Positions 2,825 to 63,255 of a stretch of DNA of 64,000 nucleotides are shown here, one piece after another (within the stretch, counting starts at the first letter, position 1; every line of letters begins with the position of its first letter). Source of the DNA: Propioniciclava coleopterorum (GTDB lineage: Bacteria > Actinomycetota > Actinomycetes > Propionibacteriales > Propionibacteriaceae); contig NZ_CP049865.1 in the NCBI RefSeq assembly GCF_011393335.1, positions 62,001 to 126,000 of the forward strand, in the 5' to 3' direction. The notes below the pieces were generated by a model. The model worked only from the letters and a program-made list of their open reading frames with translations. It was not told the origin of the DNA and ran no database searches. Both the position numbers and the translations under genes were made by a program.

Positions 2825-4204
2825 TCAGCAGCCCAGCAGGCGGGCGGCCAGGTAGGGGGCGACCTGATCCAGGGCGACGCGCTCCTGGGCCATCGTGTCG
2901 CGCTCGCGGATGGTGACCGCGTCGTCCTCGAGGGTGTCGAAGTCGACCGTCACGCAGAACGGGGTGCCGATCTCGTCCTGACGGCGGTAGCGGCGTCCGA
3001 TGGCCTGCGCGTCGTCGAACTCGATGTTCCAGTGCTTGCGCAGCTCCGCGGCGAGGTCGCGCGCCTTCGGCGAGAGGGCCTCGTTGCGCGACAGCGGCAG
3101 CACGGCGGCCTTGACCGGTGCCAGGCGGCGGTCCAGCTTCAGCACCGTGCGCTTGTCGACCCCGCCCTTGGCGTTGGGCGCCTCGTCCTCGGTGTAGGCC
3201 TCCACCATGAACGCCATCAGCGACCGCGTCAGGCCGGCGGCCGGCTCGATGACGTAGGGCAGGTAGCGCTCGCCCTTGGCCTGGTCGAAGTAGGACAGGT
3301 CCTCGCCCGAGTGCTCGCTGTGGGTGCCCAGGTCGAAGTCGGTGCGGTTCGCCACGCCCTCGAGCTCGCCCCAGCCGTCGCCGCCGGTGAAGCCGAAGTT
3401 GTACTCGATGTCGACGGTGCGCTTGGAGTAGTGCGACAGCTTCTCCGCCGGGTGCTCGAACAGGCGCAGGTTCTCCGGGTCGATGCCCAGATCGACGTAC
3501 CAGTCGTGCCGGGCGTCGATCCAGTGCTGGTGCCACTCCTCGTCGGTGCCGGGCTCGACGAAGAACTCCATCTCCATCTGCTCGAACTCGCGGGTGCGGA
3601 AGATGAAGTTGCCGGGCGTGATCTCGTTGCGGAAGCTCTTGCCGACCTGGCCGATGCCGAAGGGCACCTTCATGCGCGAGGTCTGCTGCACGTGCTCGAA
3701 GTTCACGAAGATGCCCTGGGCCGTCTCCGGACGCAGGTAGTGCAGGCCCGAGTCGTCCTTGATGACGCCCAGATGCGTCTCGAGCATCATGTTGAAGTCG
3801 CGCGGCTCGGTGAACTGGCCCAGCGTCCCGCACTCGGGGCAGTTGATCTCGGTCAGGCCCTGCGGCGCCCGGCCCTTCTTGAACTCGAACGCCTCCTCGA
3901 GCTGGTCGGCGCGGAACCGCTTGTGGCAATTGAGGCACTCGGTCAGCGGGTCGGAGAAGACGCCGACGTGGCCCGAGGCCACCCACACCTGACGCGGCAG
4001 GATGATCGAGGAGTCCAGGCCCACGACGTCGGGCCGCTGCTGCACGACGGCCTTCCACCACTGCCGCTTGATGTTCTCCTTGAGTTCCACGCCGTAGGGG
4101 CCGTAGTCCCAGGCCGCCCGCGTGCCGCCGTAGATGTCCCCCGAGGGGTACACGAAGCCGCGGCGCTTCGTGAGGCTGATGACGTTGTCGAGCTTGCTGG
4201 CCAT
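2825..4204 (-). CDS. glyS: glycyl-tRNA synthetase, dimeric class II type
   Basis: Charges tRNA-Gly. At 459 residues it matches the single-chain alpha2 form of Actinobacteria rather than the alpha2beta2 enzyme. Class II motifs are visible: [20 protein letters not shown] (motif 2) and [16 protein letters not shown] (motif 3). A CLNC...CPEC zinc-type pair lies in the insertion near residues 90-125, and the anticodon-binding domain forms the C-terminus. ATG 4204 has an AAGGAGG site 8 bases upstream. A TAGGGT -10 at 4269-4274 implies a leader of about 58 bases. Its position beside a zur/recO pair is conserved in Mycobacterium. Confidence 0.97.
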
Positions 4205-35380: not shown

Positions 35381-36487
35381 CTAGAACCCCAGGCGGTTGA
35401 GGTACTTGGCGTCCCGCTGCCAGTCGGGCATCACCTTGACGTGGATCGCCAGGTGCACCGGCATGCCGAGCAGCTGCTTGGCCTGCAGGCGGGCGGTCCT
35501 GCCGACCTCCTTGAGCCGTTCGCCGCGGTGGCCGATGATGATGCCCTTCTGGGACTCGCGCTCCACCACGATCGAGGCGAACACGTCCATCATCGGCTTG
35601 TCGGCCGGGCGGTCCTCCCGCGGGCGCATCTCGTCGATGATCACCGCGATCGAGTGTGGCAGTTCGTCGCTGACGCCCTCCAGGGCGGCCTCACGGATGA
35701 GCTCCGCGATCCGGGTCTCGACCGGCTCGTCGGTGACCTCGTCGTCGGGGAACAGCGGCGGGCCGGCCGGCAGCAGGGCCACCAGCTCGTCCACGACGAT
35801 GTCGACCTGGTCGTCGGTCAGCGCCGAGACCGGGACGATCGCCTCCCAGGTGAGCCCGAGCTGCTCCTCCATCGAGGCGATCTTGAGCAGGTGCTGCCCG
35901 ATCCGCTCGCGGCTCACCAGGTCGGTCTTGGTCGCCAGGGCGACCAGCTTGGGACGCCGCGGCAGTTCGGCGATCTCCTTGAGCAGGAACTCGTCGCCGG
36001 GGCCGATGCGCTGGTTGCACGGCAGGCAGACGCCGATGACGTCGACGCCGGCCCAGGTCTCGTAGACCAGGTCGTTGAGCCGCTCACCCAGCAGCGTCCG
36101 GGGGCGGTGCAGGCCGGGGGTGTCCACGAGCACGAGTTGCGCGTCGGGCCGGTTGAGGACGCCGCGGATGATCCGCCGGGTCGTCTGCGGCTTGGAGGAG
36201 GTGATCGCGATCTTCTCCCCCACGATCGCGTTCGTCAGGGTCGACTTGCCGGCGTTGGGGCGTCCGACGAAGCAGGCGAAGCCCGAGTGGAACCCCTCCG
36301 GGATGTCGTAGGCGACCGCCGCCGCCGCGCCGGCACCCGCGGCGAGCGCGCGCTCGTCCTCGTCGAGGCCGTCGTCCAGGTCGGCGTCCAGGTCCTCGTC
36401 GAGGTCGGCGTCCGGGTCGTTCAGGTCGATATCGTCCGGCTCGCCGTCCCGCGTGCCGGGGCCCTGCGGGTCGGGGCGGTCGCTCAT
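35381..36487 (-). CDS. era: GTPase Era with an acidic N-terminal extension
   Basis: Ribosome-assembly GTPase that binds 16S rRNA. GTPase motifs: GRPNAGKST (G1), a switch region with TTRR (G2), DTPG (G3), TKTD (G4, in place of NKxD) and SAL (G5). The C-terminal KH domain has GIIIGHRGERLKEVG. Length 368 versus about 300 in E. coli; the excess is an Asp/Leu-rich repeat at residues ~18-45 (DADLDEDLDADLDDGLDEDE) before the G domain. ATG 36487 overlaps the corC stop (ATGA). Confidence 0.96.
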   Translation of the reverse strand: MSDRPDPQGPGTRDGEPDDIDLNDPDADLDEDLDADLDDGLDEDERALAAGAGAAAAVAYDIPEGFHSGFACFVGRPNAGKSTLTNAIVGEKIAITSSKPQTTRRIIRGVLNRPDAQLVLVDTPGLHRPRTLLGERLNDLVYETWAGVDVIGVCLPCNQRIGPGDEFLLKEIAELPRRPKLVALATKTDLVSRERIGQHLLKIASMEEQLGLTWEAIVPVSALTDDQVDIVVDELVALLPAGPPLFPDDEVTDEPVETRIAELIREAALEGVSDELPHSIAVIIDEMRPREDRPADKPMMDVFASIVVERESQKGIIIGHRGERLKEVGRTARLQAKQLLGMPVHLAIHVKVMPDWQRDAKYLNRLGF

Positions 36488-37864
36488 CGTTCCTCCTCGG
36501 TCGGGGATCCGGACGCGTGGCGTCCCTTCTTGGCCGACGCGGCCAGCTCGACGGTGGCGTCCACGGCCGCGTCGGTGTCGCCGGCCTCGTGGATGAGGCC
36601 CGCGACGACGGTCTGGATGGAGTGGCGGCGTCCGGACGCCCGCTCGGCGACCAGCTCGATGCCCTCCCACTCCACGACCGAGCCCGGGATCGGCACCTTG
36701 TTGAGTTCCTTGGCCATCAGGCCCAGGACGGTGTCGACGTCGTCGTCGTCCAGCTTGAGGCCGAACAGCTCGCCGAGGTCGTGGACGGGCAGCCGGGAGC
36801 TCACCCGGAACCGGCCGTCGGCCAGCTGCACGTAGGGCGGGATCTCCTCGTCGAACTCGTCGACGATTTCGCCGACGATCTCCTCCAGGATGTCCTCGAT
36901 GGTCGCCAGGCCGGCGGTGCCGCCGAACTCGTCCACCACGATGACGACGTGGCTGCGGGTCAGCTGCATCTCCTTGAGGAGTTCATCGACCGGCTTGCTG
37001 TCGGGGCAGAAGATCGGCGGACGCATCGCGGAGGCGACGTCCTCGCCCGCCTGGGCGTTGGGATTGTCGTAGATCCGGCGGATGACGTCCTTGAGGTAGA
37101 GGACCCCGAGCACGTCGTCGACGTCGTCGCCGATCACGGGGATGCGGGAGTAGCCCGAGCGCAGCGCCAGCGACAGGCCCTGGCGCAGCGTCTTGTCCTG
37201 CTCGATCCAGACCATCTCGGTGCGCGGCACCATCACCTCCTTGACGATGGTGTCGCCCAGCTCGAAGACGGAGTGGATCATGCGGCGCTCGCCGGCCTCG
37301 ATGAGGTCGGACGCCTCCGCCATGTCGACGAGTTCGCGGAGCTCGGCCTCGGAGGTGAACGGCCCGTCGGTGAACCCGCGACCGGGCGTGATGGCGTTGC
37401 CGACGATGATGAGGATCTGCGGGATCGGCCCGATCACGGTGGTGAGGGCGGAGATCAGCCCGGTGGTGCGGAGGGCGATCCGGTCGGCCTTCTGGCGTCC
37501 GACGGTGCGCGCCGCCACCCCGATGAGCACGAACGACACCACGACCATGGGGGCGATGGTGAACAGCAGCCGCTCCCACAGGTCGTCGAAGCGCTGGAAC
37601 ACCACGACGCCGACCAGCACGATGGCGCCGATCTCGAAGAGCATCCGCAGGAACAGGGCGGTGTTCAGGTAGGGCGCCGGGTCCTGCATGATCTGCAGCA
37701 GCTTGTCCGCCCCCCGGTCACCGTCCTTGACGTGGACCTCGGCACGGGACTTGCTGAACGACTGCAACGCCGACTCGATCGACGTCAGGACCCCCGCCAG
37801 CAGCACGCACACGAGGGCGACGCCGAGCAGGATCCATTCGGTTTGGGTTAACAGGGGTACTCAC
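36484..37864 (-). CDS. CNNM/CorC-type membrane protein (DUF21, CBS pair, transporter-associated domain), start frame broken
   Basis: Magnesium/cobalt efflux-type family protein. A DUF21 membrane domain is followed by a CBS pair (VMVPRTEMVWIE onward) and the CorC_HlyC domain near the C-terminus. In the continuous frame the first start codon is GTG 37812, which cuts the first helix. One added G in the GGGG run 37854-37857 connects GTG 37864 (after a GAAGGAG site) to a complete helix reading VSTPLLTQTEWILLGVAL. A TAGAAT -10 lies at 37888-37893. It gives corC-era-FUSC their own promoter, separate from ybeY. Confidence 0.88.
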
Positions 37865-38018
37865 GACTCCTTCTACGCGGTGGCGACATTCTAGCGGTGC
37901 CGCCCCCTCGCCCCGCGAGCCCAGGCGGCGCCTGCCCCCGTCCGACCGCCACGCCCGGCGGACGCATCCTCCTCGGCCTCGGAGCGGCGGGTCTGCCCTC
38001 AGCGGGTCCTCGGCTGCG

Positions 38019-39138
38019 CAGACGCCCCCGTTTGCGTCAGACGCCCCCGTTCCTACGTGGGCAACTGACGCAAGCGCGAGCGGCTCGTGGCAATCGGGGG
38101 CGACTCGTCCCAGGCGGGGGCGGCTCGTCGCAAGCGCGGGCGGCTCGTCCCAATCAGGGGCGCGTCGTCTCAAGTGCGGGCGACCCGTCACGAACCGAGG
38201 GGTGACCCGTCGCGATCGGGGCGCGTCCCTTCCCAGACGCCCCCGTTTGCGTCAGACGCCCCCGTTCCTACGTGGGCAACTGACGCAAGTGGGGGCGGCT
38301 CGTCCCAGTCGGGGGCAACTCGTCCCCAACGGGGGCAATTCGCCGCAAGCCCGGGCGAGTCGTCGCAAGCCGGGGCGGGTCGTCCCAAGCGGCGGCAACT
38401 CGTCCCAAGCGCGGGCGAGTCGTCCCAAGCGCGGGCGGTCGTCCCAAGCGGGGCGACCGTCACGAACGAGGGTGACCCGTCGCGGACCGTGGTGTCCCTT
38501 CCCAGACGCCCCCGTTTGAGCCAGACGCCCCCGTTCCTACGTGGGCAACTGACGCAAGTGGGGGCGGCTCGCCCCAACCGGGGGCAACTCGTCCCAAGCG
38601 GGGGCAATTCGTCACAAGCCCGGGCGAGTCGTCGCAAGCCGGGCGAGTCGTCCCAAGCGGGGGCGGGTCGTCTCAAGCGGGGGCAACCCGTCCCAAGAGC
38701 GGGCGAGTCGTCTCAAGCGCGGGCGAGTCGTCTCAAGCGCGGGCGGTCGTCCCAGGCGGGGCGACCGTCACGAACGAGAGTGACCCGTCGCGGACCGGGG
38801 CGTCCCTTCCAGGCGCCCCCGTTTGAGCCAGACGCCCCCGTTCCTACGTGGGCAACTGACGCAAGTGGGGGCGGCTCGCCCCAATCGGGGGCAACTCGTC
38901 GCAAACGGGGGCAACTCGCCGCAAGTGGGGGCGGCTCGCCCCAAGCGCGGGCGGCCCGTCGCAAGCGCGGGCGGCCCGTCGCAAGCGCGGGCGACTCGTC
39001 CCAAACGCGGGCGACTCGTCCCAAACGCGGGCGACGCGTCCCAAACGCGGGCGACTCGTCCCAAACGCGGGCGACTCGTCCCAAACGCGGGCGGCTCGTC
39101 CCAAGCGCGGGCGGCTCGTCGCAAGCGCGGGCGGCTCA
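38019..39138. repeat. nested array of degenerate 20-bp tandem repeats in four blocks
   Basis: About 45 head-to-tail copies of a 20-bp unit, consensus SCAAGCGSGGGCGRCTCGTC. The period is exact in the last block: units begin at 38861, 38881, 38901 and so on to 39121. The array falls in four blocks opening at about 38019, 38234, 38503 and 38811. Each block begins with a ~52-bp module of different sequence (two GACGCCCCCGTT copies, then CCTACGTGGGCAACTGACG). Blocks 2-4 also share the same ending (ACGAACGAG, then GTGACCCGTCGCG, then TCCCTT). Long open frames exist on both strands because the unit lacks stop codons; since 20 is not a multiple of 3 they carry no consistent protein. Function unknown. 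Confidence 0.85.
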
Positions 39139-39154
39139 CGCGCGAGGCGGCGAC

Positions 39155-39607
39155 TCAGGAGCGGGAGGCGTCCCAGTCGGCGATGATCCGGTCGTTGAGG
39201 CCGAACATCACCTTCTTCTCCTCGGGCTCGGCGTGGTCGTGGCCCAGCAGGTGCAGCAACCCGTGGATCAGCAGATAGTCGGCCTCGCCCTCGGGCGTGC
39301 GGCCGTTCTCGGCGGCCTGCGCCGCGGTCACGGTCGGGCACAGGACGATGTCGCCGAGCATCCCCAGGGGCGGGTCCTCGTCGTCGCGCGGGGCACGGAG
39401 CTCGTCCATCGGGAAGCTGAGGACGTCGGTGGGGCCGGGCAGGTCCATGAACCGGACGTGGTAGTCGGCCATCGTCGGCTCGTCGACCAGCAGGATCGAC
39501 AGCTCGGCCTGCGGGTGGATCCGCAGGGCGTCCAGCGCGAACGTCGCCAACTGCACCAGGCGGAGCTCGTCGACCTCGACGCCGGACTCGTTGTTGATGT
39601 CGATCAT
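39155..39607 (-). CDS. ybeY: rRNA maturation endoribonuclease YbeY
   Basis: Zinc-dependent single-strand RNase needed for 16S rRNA 3' maturation and ribosome quality control. 150 residues with the metal motif HGLLHLLGHDH and the preceding TDVLSFPMDE strand. Starts ATGA-overlapped with the phoH stop, so it is translated with phoH. In other actinomycetes corC follows at once; here the 20-bp repeat array begins 17 bases after the stop. Confidence 0.96.
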   Translation of the reverse strand: MIDINNESGVEVDELRLVQLATFALDALRIHPQAELSILLVDEPTMADYHVRFMDLPGPTDVLSFPMDELRAPRDDEDPPLGMLGDIVLCPTVTAAQAAENGRTPEGEADYLLIHGLLHLLGHDHAEPEEKKVMFGLNDRIIADWDASRS

Positions 39608-60409: not shown

Positions 60410-63255
60410 CCGTCACCGCTCCGCTCCACCGCGTCACCCCCGCCCGCGACCAGGCCGCCACGTGGGGCGTGTGCTGGCCCCGCGGCGCGGTGCGGCCCAG
60501 CGCGTCCTTCACCCTGGACGCCGACGGCGCGCCCCACCCGGTGCAGAGCTGGCCGCTGGCCACCTGGCCCGACGGGTCGTGGAAGTGGACCGGGCACAGC
60601 TCCCCCGGGCTGCCCGCGGGCGCCCTCGCGGTCATGGCCCATCCGGCGGCGTCCCCTCCGGTCTCGTCCCCTCCGGTCGCAGCCCCTCCGGTCGCAGCCC
60701 CTCCGGTCGGAGCCCCTCCGGCAGCGGGGCAGGCGTCCCCCGATCCCGCCGACGGTGACGGACCCGATCCCGCCGACGGTGACGGACCCGGCGCGGCCGA
60801 AGGCGATGCACCCGGCCCGGCCGACGGACACACGCCCGGGGCGGCCGACGGCGCCGACGCGCTGCGGGTCACGGCGTCCGGAGACGGGTGGATCGTCGCC
60901 GACGCGACCCGCGCCTGGCACGTCGCTCCCGGACGCCACCTCATCGACCGCGTCGAGGTCGACGGCCGGCTCGTCGGGCGCGACGTGGCCCTGGTGAGCC
61001 TGTGGCAGGACGGCCCCGACGACGACGGCGCCCGGCCGGCGCGCGAGGACTGGTCGGGGCGCGTGGAGAGCGTGGTCGTCGAGCAGGACGGCCCCGCGCG
61101 TGCGGTCCTGCTGCTCACCGGCGCCCACCACCCCGACGGCGCGACCGCCCGCGGCTCGGACGCCTGGCTGCCGTTCCGCGTCCGGCTGATCTTCGGCGCC
61201 GGCCGCCCCGACGTGCTCGTGCAGCACACGTTCGTCTGGGACGGCGACGCCGCCACCGACTTCCTGGCGGGGCTGGGCGTCCGCGTCCAGGTGCCGCTGC
61301 GCGCCGAGCCGTGGAACCGGCACGTCCGGCTGTCGGGGCCGATCCACGACGGCCGCGTCGGGTTCCTCAGCGAGGCGGCCCTGGGCATCACCGGGCTGCG
61401 CCGCGACCCCGGTGCCGAGCGCCGCGCCGCGCAGGTGGCCGGGCGGCCGCTCGACGACCCGTCCGGCTGGCCGGCGACCGTCGGCGACCGGCTGCGCTGG
61501 ATTCCGGTCTGGAACGACTGGTCGCTCGCCCAACTCAGCCCCGACGGCTTCACGCTGCGCAAGCGCACGGGACCCGGCCACGCCTGGGTGCCGATCCCCG
61601 GATCGACCCGCTCCAGCGGCTTCGCCTACGCGGGCGACACCGTCGGCGGCGTCGCGCTGGGGCGCCGCTCGTTCTGGCAGACCCACCCGGTCGGCGTCGA
61701 CATCCGCGGGATGGGCGGCAACGCCGCGAGCCTGACCTCGTGGCTGTGGTCGCCCGAGGCGCCGGCGATGGACCTGAGGTTCTACCACGACGGGCTCGGG
61801 CAGGACACGTGGGCCGACCAGCTCGACGCGCTGGAGATCACCTACGAGGACCACGAACCCGGCTTCGGCGACCCGCACGGCATCGCCCGGACCGCCGAGC
61901 TGCGGCTGTTCGCCCACGCCGGGACGCCGACGCCCGAGGCGCTCGCGGCGGACGCGCTCGCGACCGAGGATCCCGTCGTCGTCATGCCCACGCCCGCGCA
62001 CCTGGCCGCCTGTGGGGTGTTCGGCGACTGGCTGCCCATCGATCCGGCCGACGCCGCCGCGTCCGAGCTCGAGGCGCTGCTGGACGGCCTGTTCGCGTTC
62101 TACGCGGGCCAGGTCGAGGACCGGCGCTGGTACGGGTTCTGGGACTTCGGCGACGTCATGCACGCCTACGACCCCGACCGGCACCAGTGGCGCTACGACG
62201 TGGGCGGGTACGCCTGGGACAACTCCGAGCTGTCCACCGACCTGTGGCTCTGGCTGCAACTGCTGCGCACCGGGCGCGCGGACGTGTTCCGCATGGCCGA
62301 GGCGATGTCCCGGCACACCGGCGAGGTCGACGTCCACCACGTCGGCCGGTTCGCGGGGCTCGGCAGCCGCCACAACGTGCAGCACTTCGGCTGCTCGGCC
62401 AAGCAGCTGCGGATCAGCTCGGCGGTGTACCGGCGGATCCACTTCTACCTGACCGCCGACGAGCGCGTCGGCGACCTGCTGGCCGAGCTCGTGGACGCCG
62501 AGCGGACGTTCCTGGCGCTCGACCCGACCCGCAAGGTCCGCCACGACGGCTACGTGATGGACCCGCACGCGGTGTCGGTGGGCCTGGGCACCGACTGGAG
62601 CGCGCTGGCCTCGGCGTGGCTCACCGGCTGGGAGCGCGTCGGCGACGAGGCGGTGCGCGCCCGCTGCCGCGACAAGCTCCTGGGCACGATGGCGGACATC
62701 GGCGCCCTGCCGCAGGGGTTCCTGTCCGGCGAAGCGCGCCTCGACCTGGCGACCGGCCGGTTCGACACCGCCCCGGACCAGCGCTCGGTCTCTCACCTGT
62801 CGGCCGTGTTCGGCCTGGTCGAGGTGTGCGCCGAGGTCATCGACCTCACGGCCGGGACGCCCCACGAGCAGCCCGGTTTCGCCGAGGCGTGGGCGCGCTA
62901 CTGCCGCCACTACCTCACCCGCGACGACGACCCGCGGGCCGCGACCGCCGCCGACGGCGTCCCGCTGGCGCAGGCGCACAGCCGGCTGGCGGCCTGGGCC
63001 GGAGCCCACGACGCCGACCCCGCGCTGGCGGACCTGGCGTGGTCGGCGTTCCTGTCCCCGCGCGACTCGATCCCCCACGACCGGCTGCGCCCGGGGCGTC
63101 CGCTCGGAGTCCGGGTCGAGGACGGCCCGACCGTGCTCGCGCCCGTCCGGGAGGCCCCCGGGGTCTCGACCAACGGGGCCGCGCAGTTCGCGTTGGCCGC
63201 GATCCAGAACCTGGCGCTGGCCCGCGCGGCGCTCCCGGGGGACGCGGATGCCTAG
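60406..63255 (+). CDS. PcRGLX/YetA-like (exo-rhamnogalacturonan lyase family) protein with Pro/Asp-rich insertion
   Basis: 949 residues, three-part family architecture: N-terminal RIFT-like barrel (ATWGVCWPRGAVRPSASFTL), central beta-sandwich, and C-terminal alpha/alpha toroid (RWYGFWDFGDVMHAYD, YAWDNSELSTDLWLWLQLLR, FRMAEAMSRHTGEVDVHHVG). Fungal members cleave rhamnogalacturonan from the end; Bacillus YetA lies in the lpl locus. No signal peptide, so intracellular. Residues ~82-148 are a low-complexity insert, first SPPV/APPV repeats, then DPADGDGP repeats, unusual for this fold. Confidence 0.88.
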   Translation: MTVTAPLHRVTPARDQAATWGVCWPRGAVRPSASFTLDADGAPHPVQSWPLATWPDGSWKWTGHSSPGLPAGALAVMAHPAASPPVSSPPVAAPPVAAPPVGAPPAAGQASPDPADGDGPDPADGDGPGAAEGDAPGPADGHTPGAADGADALRVTASGDGWIVADATRAWHVAPGRHLIDRVEVDGRLVGRDVALVSLWQDGPDDDGARPAREDWSGRVESVVVEQDGPARAVLLLTGAHHPDGATARGSDAWLPFRVRLIFGAGRPDVLVQHTFVWDGDAATDFLAGLGVRVQVPLRAEPWNRHVRLSGPIHDGRVGFLSEAALGITGLRRDPGAERRAAQVAGRPLDDPSGWPATVGDRLRWIPVWNDWSLAQLSPDGFTLRKRTGPGHAWVPIPGSTRSSGFAYAGDTVGGVALGRRSFWQTHPVGVDIRGMGGNAASLTSWLWSPEAPAMDLRFYHDGLGQDTWADQLDALEITYEDHEPGFGDPHGIARTAELRLFAHAGTPTPEALAADALATEDPVVVMPTPAHLAACGVFGDWLPIDPADAAASELEALLDGLFAFYAGQVEDRRWYGFWDFGDVMHAYDPDRHQWRYDVGGYAWDNSELSTDLWLWLQLLRTGRADVFRMAEAMSRHTGEVDVHHVGRFAGLGSRHNVQHFGCSAKQLRISSAVYRRIHFYLTADERVGDLLAELVDAERTFLALDPTRKVRHDGYVMDPHAVSVGLGTDWSALASAWLTGWERVGDEAVRARCRDKLLGTMADIGALPQGFLSGEARLDLATGRFDTAPDQRSVSHLSAVFGLVEVCAEVIDLTAGTPHEQPGFAEAWARYCRHYLTRDDDPRAATAADGVPLAQAHSRLAAWAGAHDADPALADLAWSAFLSPRDSIPHDRLRPGRPLGVRVEDGPTVLAPVREAPGVSTNGAAQFALAAIQNLALARAALPGDADA

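Follow-up and report, generated by a model that had tools for sequence, protein, structure and literature searches.

Dispersed bacterial palindromes include the REPs, for which Di Nocera et al. distinguished a GTAG and a CGTC family, the tag standing at one end of a short stem of 5-13 or 8-9 bp (available sections of PMC3733652). Tandem repeats with a constant length of 20-21 nt and a species-specific sequence have been described in bacteria by Subirana and Messeguer, who gave their function as not known, with small RNAs or a protein that polymerises as their suggestions (available sections of PMC8161180). Inverted repeats are also bound by AbiEi proteins, where monomers bind 23-bp inverted repeats, two in number, and Rv2827c binds four (available sections of PMC7319586).

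Here we describe an array of 20-bp units between ybeY and a corC-like gene, found in a window of 64,000 nucleotides (the whole stretch of DNA that was analysed). The array belongs to a family that agrees with the description by Subirana and Messeguer, as units of 20-21 nt occur at several loci, are non-coding and have species-specific letters. Further we describe a gene that is bracketed by such repeats in several genomes.

Array architecture at the ybeY-corC junction

TRF reported the array (Table 1) with a period of 20, 54.8 copies and a score of 456, and at a second level with a period of 308 and a score of 1095. Two position-weight scans counted 38 or 39 units. The initial annotation had described four blocks of rising length, each headed by a module of about 52 bp, with the most uniform units in the last block. 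The head starts agree with this and give block lengths of 215, 269, 307 and ~330 bp, and the direct run of block 4 is indeed the most uniform stretch. The module itself is present at each block start, but it turned out to be the left part of a longer palindrome and to consist of inverted units. Together with the first direct unit it forms a palindrome of 68 columns with a constant pair sum, in the order two inverted units, short loop and direct units, as seen in an alignment of 56 diverse copies out of at least 69 in the own genome, two of them from the window array. The stem of the heads has 31 pairs.

Table 1. Coordinates of the features at the array and of the bracketed gene. Positions are those of the window unless marked otherwise.
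Feature	Position	Strand	Basis or comment
Whole array, four blocks of 20-bp units, head left and units right	38019..39139	+	TRF, position-weight scan
Palindromic head 1	38019..38088	.	Initially annotated 52-bp module is 38019-38070
Palindromic head 2	38234..38303	.	
Palindromic head 3	38503..38572	.	
Palindromic head 4	38810..38879	.	
Block 4 run, 13 direct 20-bp units	38862..39121	+	Position-weight scan
ybeY (PF02130)	39155..39607	-	ORF list, Pfam; stop codon 15 bp from array end
corC-like gene (CNNM, CBS, CorC_HlyC)	36484..37812	-	ORF tool, Pfam; start as the tool lists it
TAGAAT, -10-like hexamer upstream of corC	37888..37893	-	Putative promoter element
AbiEi-HTH + Vsr-like gene, 333 aa, between two heads	C1:489115-490116 (L111:4616-5617)		Outside the window; predicted domains

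That certain bases are fixed and others toggle was confirmed over 485 units genome-wide, where all four GGGC columns are 96-100% fixed and columns 4, 7, 13 and 20 split mainly between two bases each. On the other hand, we found no support for an imperfect palindrome inside each unit; among the 350 distinct units, columns 8 and 20 pair in 31%, and not one of the five column pairs exceeds shuffles. As far as tested the array is neither CRISPR nor coding, as first suggested, with units running head to tail without spacers and three ORFs reading through the array that match no Pfam family. Further tandem repeats with periods of 15-30 bp were reported by TRF at 60619-60851 of the window; these are probably coding, as their periods are multiples of three.

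In the 68-column palindrome 80.8% of the cells pair (37-47% when the arms are slid by 1-3 columns), as compared to 80.2% with the 3' letters shuffled. Pairs with a double change are fewer than in shuffles (9 against 11.7), and there is little difference between the number of G-T cells (107) and A-C cells (85). The arms of the palindrome vary independently, without mutual compensation, which argues for double-stranded DNA half-sites read singly and against a selected RNA hairpin. The unit columns also vary independently, and the head was rejected as a covarying RNA hairpin. The Rfam search gave 13 matches at E <= 10, all far under the gathering scores.

The best YbeY matches place the host near Propioniciclava, in the Propionibacteriaceae. 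The two flanking genes had been called normally adjacent. This holds for 7 of 14 relatives, with a ybeY-corC gap below 300 bp, but the gap is 885-2403 bp in six and one has no corC hit. The -10-like hexamer upstream of corC recurs as TAGAAT in P. flava and as TAGACT in P. sinopodophylli; no sigma-70 consensus pair was found at the site. The ybeY-corC gap of these two species holds no array, and the junction is only one of 33 or more sites in the genome, hence a role specific to this junction is not supported.

Dispersal of the repeat family

A search of the rest of the genome for the unit and the module, as proposed in the initial annotation, showed a dispersed rather than local family, with at least 485 units at no fewer than 33 loci on both strands of the 3.67-Mb Propionibacteriaceae chromosome. 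The 33 loci result from 35 stretches, split into 41 segments of at least two units and merged within 3 kb. It should be noted that the counts for the own genome are lower bounds, several genome searches having scored the best 18 to 88 candidates. The loci are not clustered along the chromosome (at most 7 loci per 250 kb, P = 0.32), and a dif search found two 2-mismatch sites only.

Using gene context from a simple codon-model gene caller, 67 of 68 palindromes in the own genome lie between called genes. Convergent gaps make up 18 of the 37 gaps with palindromes and 24 of 186 others (Fisher P 4e-6), and only five of the 37 are divergent. For the other species pooled the convergent excess is not significant (10/36 with palindromes, 29/158 others, P 0.25), and 6 of 50 palindromes lie outside called gaps. 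The array had no blastn match in phage or plasmid collections at E <= 1e-5 with the low-complexity filter on, nor did the repeat-associated protein described below match in phages, and a phage or plasmid origin was rejected.

A blast-type search of 38 related genomes gave matches in G006 and a short one in G030. With a covariance model we detected head-only palindromes in G006, a species of the same genus, and weak matches in other genera; some of the G006 palindromes are at contig ends, where arrays may be lost. Two of the weakly matching genomes have dispersed families of their own, G017 with 31 matches and 20-bp tandem units of other letters, and G020 with nine matches. We then reduced the palindrome to a grammar-only pattern (GCCC, 19-20 bp, WYGCCC, loop, GGGCRW, GG). 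Of 147 Propionibacteriaceae genomes, the own genome has 52 matches to this pattern per strand, G017 has 10 and G071 has 9/8, and G006, G020, G072, G088, G089 and G091 have 3-4 on one strand or both. The grammar is thereby found with different letters in 9 of the 147 genomes, own included (at least three matches on a strand), as compared to 0-3 matches per strand for the reversed control. When 246 genomes from the class were searched, the own alone exceeded three on a strand, and the reversed control reached four.

A purine follows GGGC in the downstream cores of the own genome in 94% (n=359), of G017 in 79% (n=38), of G071 in 100% (n=56) and of G020 in 93% (n=14), and in 75-100% in smaller samples, these figures being without background control. 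CGTC occurs within the unit of the own genome and is absent from the tandem units of G017 and G071.

A few observations were made beside these palindromes. Unlike palindromes stand right after what seems to be the same gene end, presumably M3-peptidase-like, in G001 (C1:875261, L213) and G012 (C12:1987, L212). In G071 a long C run lies just past a repeat array (L222, about 3175-3203), and in G088 repeats of CRISPR-like appearance (GCGGGGGACGACCCC...) are found beside a palindrome (C24, L223, upstream of 2994).

The gene bracketed by the repeats

Arrays at orthologous places between species were considered and rejected, as protein matches near palindromes between species were few (G017 12, G071 3, G020 2, G006 1, others none). 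The comparison of palindrome-neighbour genes did expose one shared gene, whose protein lies between two palindromes or arrays in the own genome (G000), G006, G017 and G071. The arrays flanking the own gene (Table 1) point outwards, and the own genome has a single homologue at E <= 1e-10.

By sequence the protein is near the cut-off of Pfam AbiEi_4 (27 of 43 members at E <= 0.01) and matches AbiEi models in PADLOC. NCBIfam gave no family for four of the proteins, and a sequence search of solved structures gave no match at E <= 1. A structure model from the 43-sequence alignment reached a pLDDT of 93.6 and a pTM of 0.90. Foldseek aligned its N-terminal part to the AbiEi antitoxin 6y8q (E 3.4e-5) and its C-terminal part to the homing endonuclease I-Bth0305I (3r3p, TMt 0.71, E 0.03) and Vsr (TMt 0.48, E 0.4), with NGO0050 (TMt 0.69, E 2) as a further match; for 3r3p, Vsr and NGO0050 the match rests on TM-score and probability, E being weak. 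Homing endonucleases of the I-Bth0305I type are named EDxHD. Five residues, E196, D229, E240, D242 and K246, do not vary among the 43 homologues. The protein is thus predicted to join an N-terminal AbiEi-type winged helix to a C-terminal Vsr/homing-endonuclease-like domain. It has the AbiEi-type DNA-binding part of AbiE systems by sequence and by the predicted fold of its N-terminal part, and the catalytic fold with conserved acidic residues of Vsr/EDxHD enzymes by prediction only (Foldseek E 0.03-2). Of four annotated records, three label the homologue a hypothetical protein and one an AbiEi-family antitoxin.

Homologues at E <= 1e-10 were found in 18 of 20 genomes searched. Their 78 matches gave 69 loci, with eight weaker matches left out and a broken gene, matched in two pieces, taken as a single locus; four first-profile proteins are among the 69, and three loci with a cut flank left 66 testable. 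For each homologue we compared the two 700-bp flanks, with the best of 160 control genes (37.4 bits) as threshold. A shared flank repeat above this maximum was found for 46 of the 66 testable homologues of the 18 genomes, for 42 of 62 without the four discovery cases, and for at least one homologue in 17 of the 18 genomes. The share is 35/44 at profile scores of at least 200, and 6/11 and 5/11 in the lower tiers. Among control ORFs from array-rich stretches of four genomes, two homologues set aside, 4 of 85 were above the threshold. The 20 homologues having no flank repeat above the control maximum count against a gene-repeat pairing.

A hairpin exceeding the 99th percentile of the controls is present in 33 of the 46 shared repeats and lacking in 13, and the best internal lag is 19-20 bp in 49 of 71 flank repeats scoring at least 8 and 22 bp in nine, control flank lags peaking at multiples of 3. 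The element is compact, and the median of 1054 bp between the flanking repeats gives room for one gene. One subgroup of homologues (L284, L285, L280 and L290) has a flank-repeat period of 22 bp instead of 19-20, which may reflect a different footprint.

Distant homologues on plasmid-labelled records have flank repeats of their own in three of four cases (131, 101 and 78.8 bits; 28.3 for the one without), that is two of three from Tsukamurella and one from Collinsella, which is of another class. The Tsukamurella records (NZ_LR134463.1, NZ_LR134465.1 and NZ_LR134451.1; L309-L311) carry the housekeeping genes pdxS, rpmG and tatB, and hence may be chromosome pieces.

To compare dispersed repeats with gene flanks we used one palindrome per stretch. 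Of the 34 other array stretches in the own genome, 32 match the upstream and 33 the downstream flank of the own gene. In G006 (3/3 stretches), G017 (8/11), G071 (8/8) and G088 (1/1) just one of the compared gene copies has flanks that match the dispersed family. For G072, 3 of 4 stretches match, on one side of the gene only, and the dispersed palindromes of G020, G091 and G089 match no compared gene flank, which counts against the pairing. Repeat similarity follows protein similarity, with a small Mantel r of 0.188 (1 of 5000 permutations). At three orthologous sites (six loci), where neighbouring genes are alike, for one pair on one side only, the bit scores within a locus are higher than those of same-side repeats between species, but the per-cent identities, unlike the bit scores, overlap. 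This is suggestive of concerted evolution of the two flanking repeats rather than proof of it.

Possible explanations and relation to known systems

We consider it probable that the array is a dispersed, tandem-amplified cognate repeat in a two-part system with the AbiEi/Vsr-like protein. The computed basis for this is the architecture and dispersal, the bracketing of the gene, the way repeats pair with gene copies in several genomes, the conservation of acidic and basic residues, and the fold predictions. One part would be the single gene with its predicted winged helix and nuclease-like domain, and the other the cognate repeat, a dyad of ~20-bp units on both sides of the gene and scattered between genes. 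Each 20-bp unit would be the binding site of one AbiEi-like domain, which is reasonable given the inverted repeats bound by AbiEi monomers and Rv2827c. The nuclease domain may then nick or cut at or near bound repeats, and repair against another copy would move, homogenise and tandemly expand the units. Copies persist between genes, in the own genome in gaps of which about half are convergent.

The main rival is that the protein does no more than bind DNA, as an (auto)regulator or a nucleoid-type protein, the arrays being a static binding platform spread by ordinary recombination, which we find unlikely. AbiEi proteins are known to autoregulate via inverted repeats upstream of their own gene (available sections of PMC7319586), the flank repeat here ends a median of 119 bp upstream of the profile match, and the independent arms behave like double-stranded half-sites; taken by itself, the palindrome upstream of the gene could serve as an autoregulatory operator. 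This does not account for the repeat also found downstream, a median of 34.5 bp past the match, nor for the invariant candidate nuclease residues in 43 homologues, and with 5 of 37 palindrome gaps divergent, promoters are not the main site. The DNA-binding platform of the initial annotation stays plausible and now has a candidate binder in the predicted AbiEi-like protein. Less probable still, in our view improbable, is a selfish or neutral minisatellite family made by slippage and recombination with the gene as a passenger. It would fit the tandem duplication at two levels, of 20-bp units and of blocks of roughly 110-330 bp including unique flank, and the almost exclusively intergenic palindromes, but column constraint is uneven, the same grammar recurs with other letters in nine Propionibacteriaceae genomes against a reversed control of 0-3 per strand, and homologues of one protein family are bracketed. 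The purely neutral, local minisatellite first offered as an option fails to explain the dispersal, the grammar shared with other genera and the bracketed gene.

Bidirectional intrinsic terminators or structured 3' UTR RNAs are very unlikely. The enrichment between convergent genes in the own genome and a predicted fold that averages about -45 kcal/mol on either strand speak for them, but five T in the 8 nt after the heads are found in 0/69 (+) and 1/69 (-), no terminator-like site was found in 37700-39300, pairing does not exceed shuffles (80.8% against 80.2%), and the similar G-T (107) and A-C (85) cells give no strong strand preference. An intrinsic terminator of GC hairpin and U-run was rejected, T-runs being all but absent after the heads. 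That these are elements of the REP/RAYT or CGTC-REP kind, moved by a tyrosine (Y1/HUH) transposase, seems to us extremely improbable, even if they are palindromic, dispersed, intergenic and partly between convergent genes, as REPs are (available sections of PMC3733652). The own genome has no Y1_Tnp match, by a search that was positive in 5 of 14 control genomes, and on this ground RAYT/REP was rejected; further, the stem of 31 pairs has no GTAG or CGTC tag at its unpaired end, and GTAG is seen in the loops of some heads, on the minus strand, with many loops lacking it.

Returning to the two-part system, we tentatively suggest a broader possibility, namely that it represents a widespread and previously unrecognised class of selfish gene-plus-repeat elements in Actinomycetota, in which a nuclease made by AbiEi-Vsr fusion and a palindromic repeat private to it, with units of 19-22 bp, may co-evolve, home or spread together and generate the 20-21-nt tandem repeats of constant length in bacteria. 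A single AbiEi-like domain, with a footprint of about two helical turns, would then determine the unit length. This would offer a gene and a mechanism for the constant, unexplained repeat length (available sections of PMC8161180). If true, the system would have evolved independently as a counterpart to the REP/RAYT pairing, its enzyme being unrelated, and the homologues annotated as hypothetical protein or AbiEi-family antitoxin would need a new reading. Among the top-ranked matches in open-licence literature, none describes in its title or the opening of its abstract a gene for an AbiEi-type nuclease that lies between repeats of its own, and the available sections of PMC8625621, PMC6749651 and PMC3534718 hold nothing on this gene-repeat pairing.

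As for the known systems, the present repeats resemble those of Subirana and Messeguer in their 20-bp non-coding units, species-specific letters and conserved short core, with Actinobacteria among the hosts, and differ in being palindrome-headed and tied to a gene; the main text of PMC8161180 has no word starting with "palindrom". With AbiEi antitoxins of the type IV (AbiE) toxin-antitoxin systems the protein shares the predicted N-terminal fold of 6y8q, and inverted-repeat binding is a feature of AbiEi and Rv2827c. AbiE systems also have an adjacent toxin gene, AbiEii (DUF1814). Here a Vsr-like C-terminal domain is added, the repeats lie ~1 kb apart with room for one gene between them, and they occur on both sides of the gene and genome-wide. 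The predicted C-terminal fold is like that of I-Bth0305I and Vsr endonucleases (TMt 0.71 to 3r3p), but in the present case the domain is joined to an AbiEi-like HTH, and palindromic repeats lie on both sides of the gene. With REP/BIME and RAYT the system has in common dispersed, species-specific intergenic palindromes and one gene flanked by the same repeat, here by analogy, with a different enzyme. The RAYT enzyme is a Y1 HUH transposase, whereas the protein described here is a predicted AbiEi-HTH + Vsr-like one, and in place of a terminal GTAG or CGTC tag there is a two-tier 68-bp palindrome with 19-20-bp units expanding into tandem arrays, in Actinomycetota. It looks like a gene-repeat system similar to REP/RAYT in logic, without any tested part in common.
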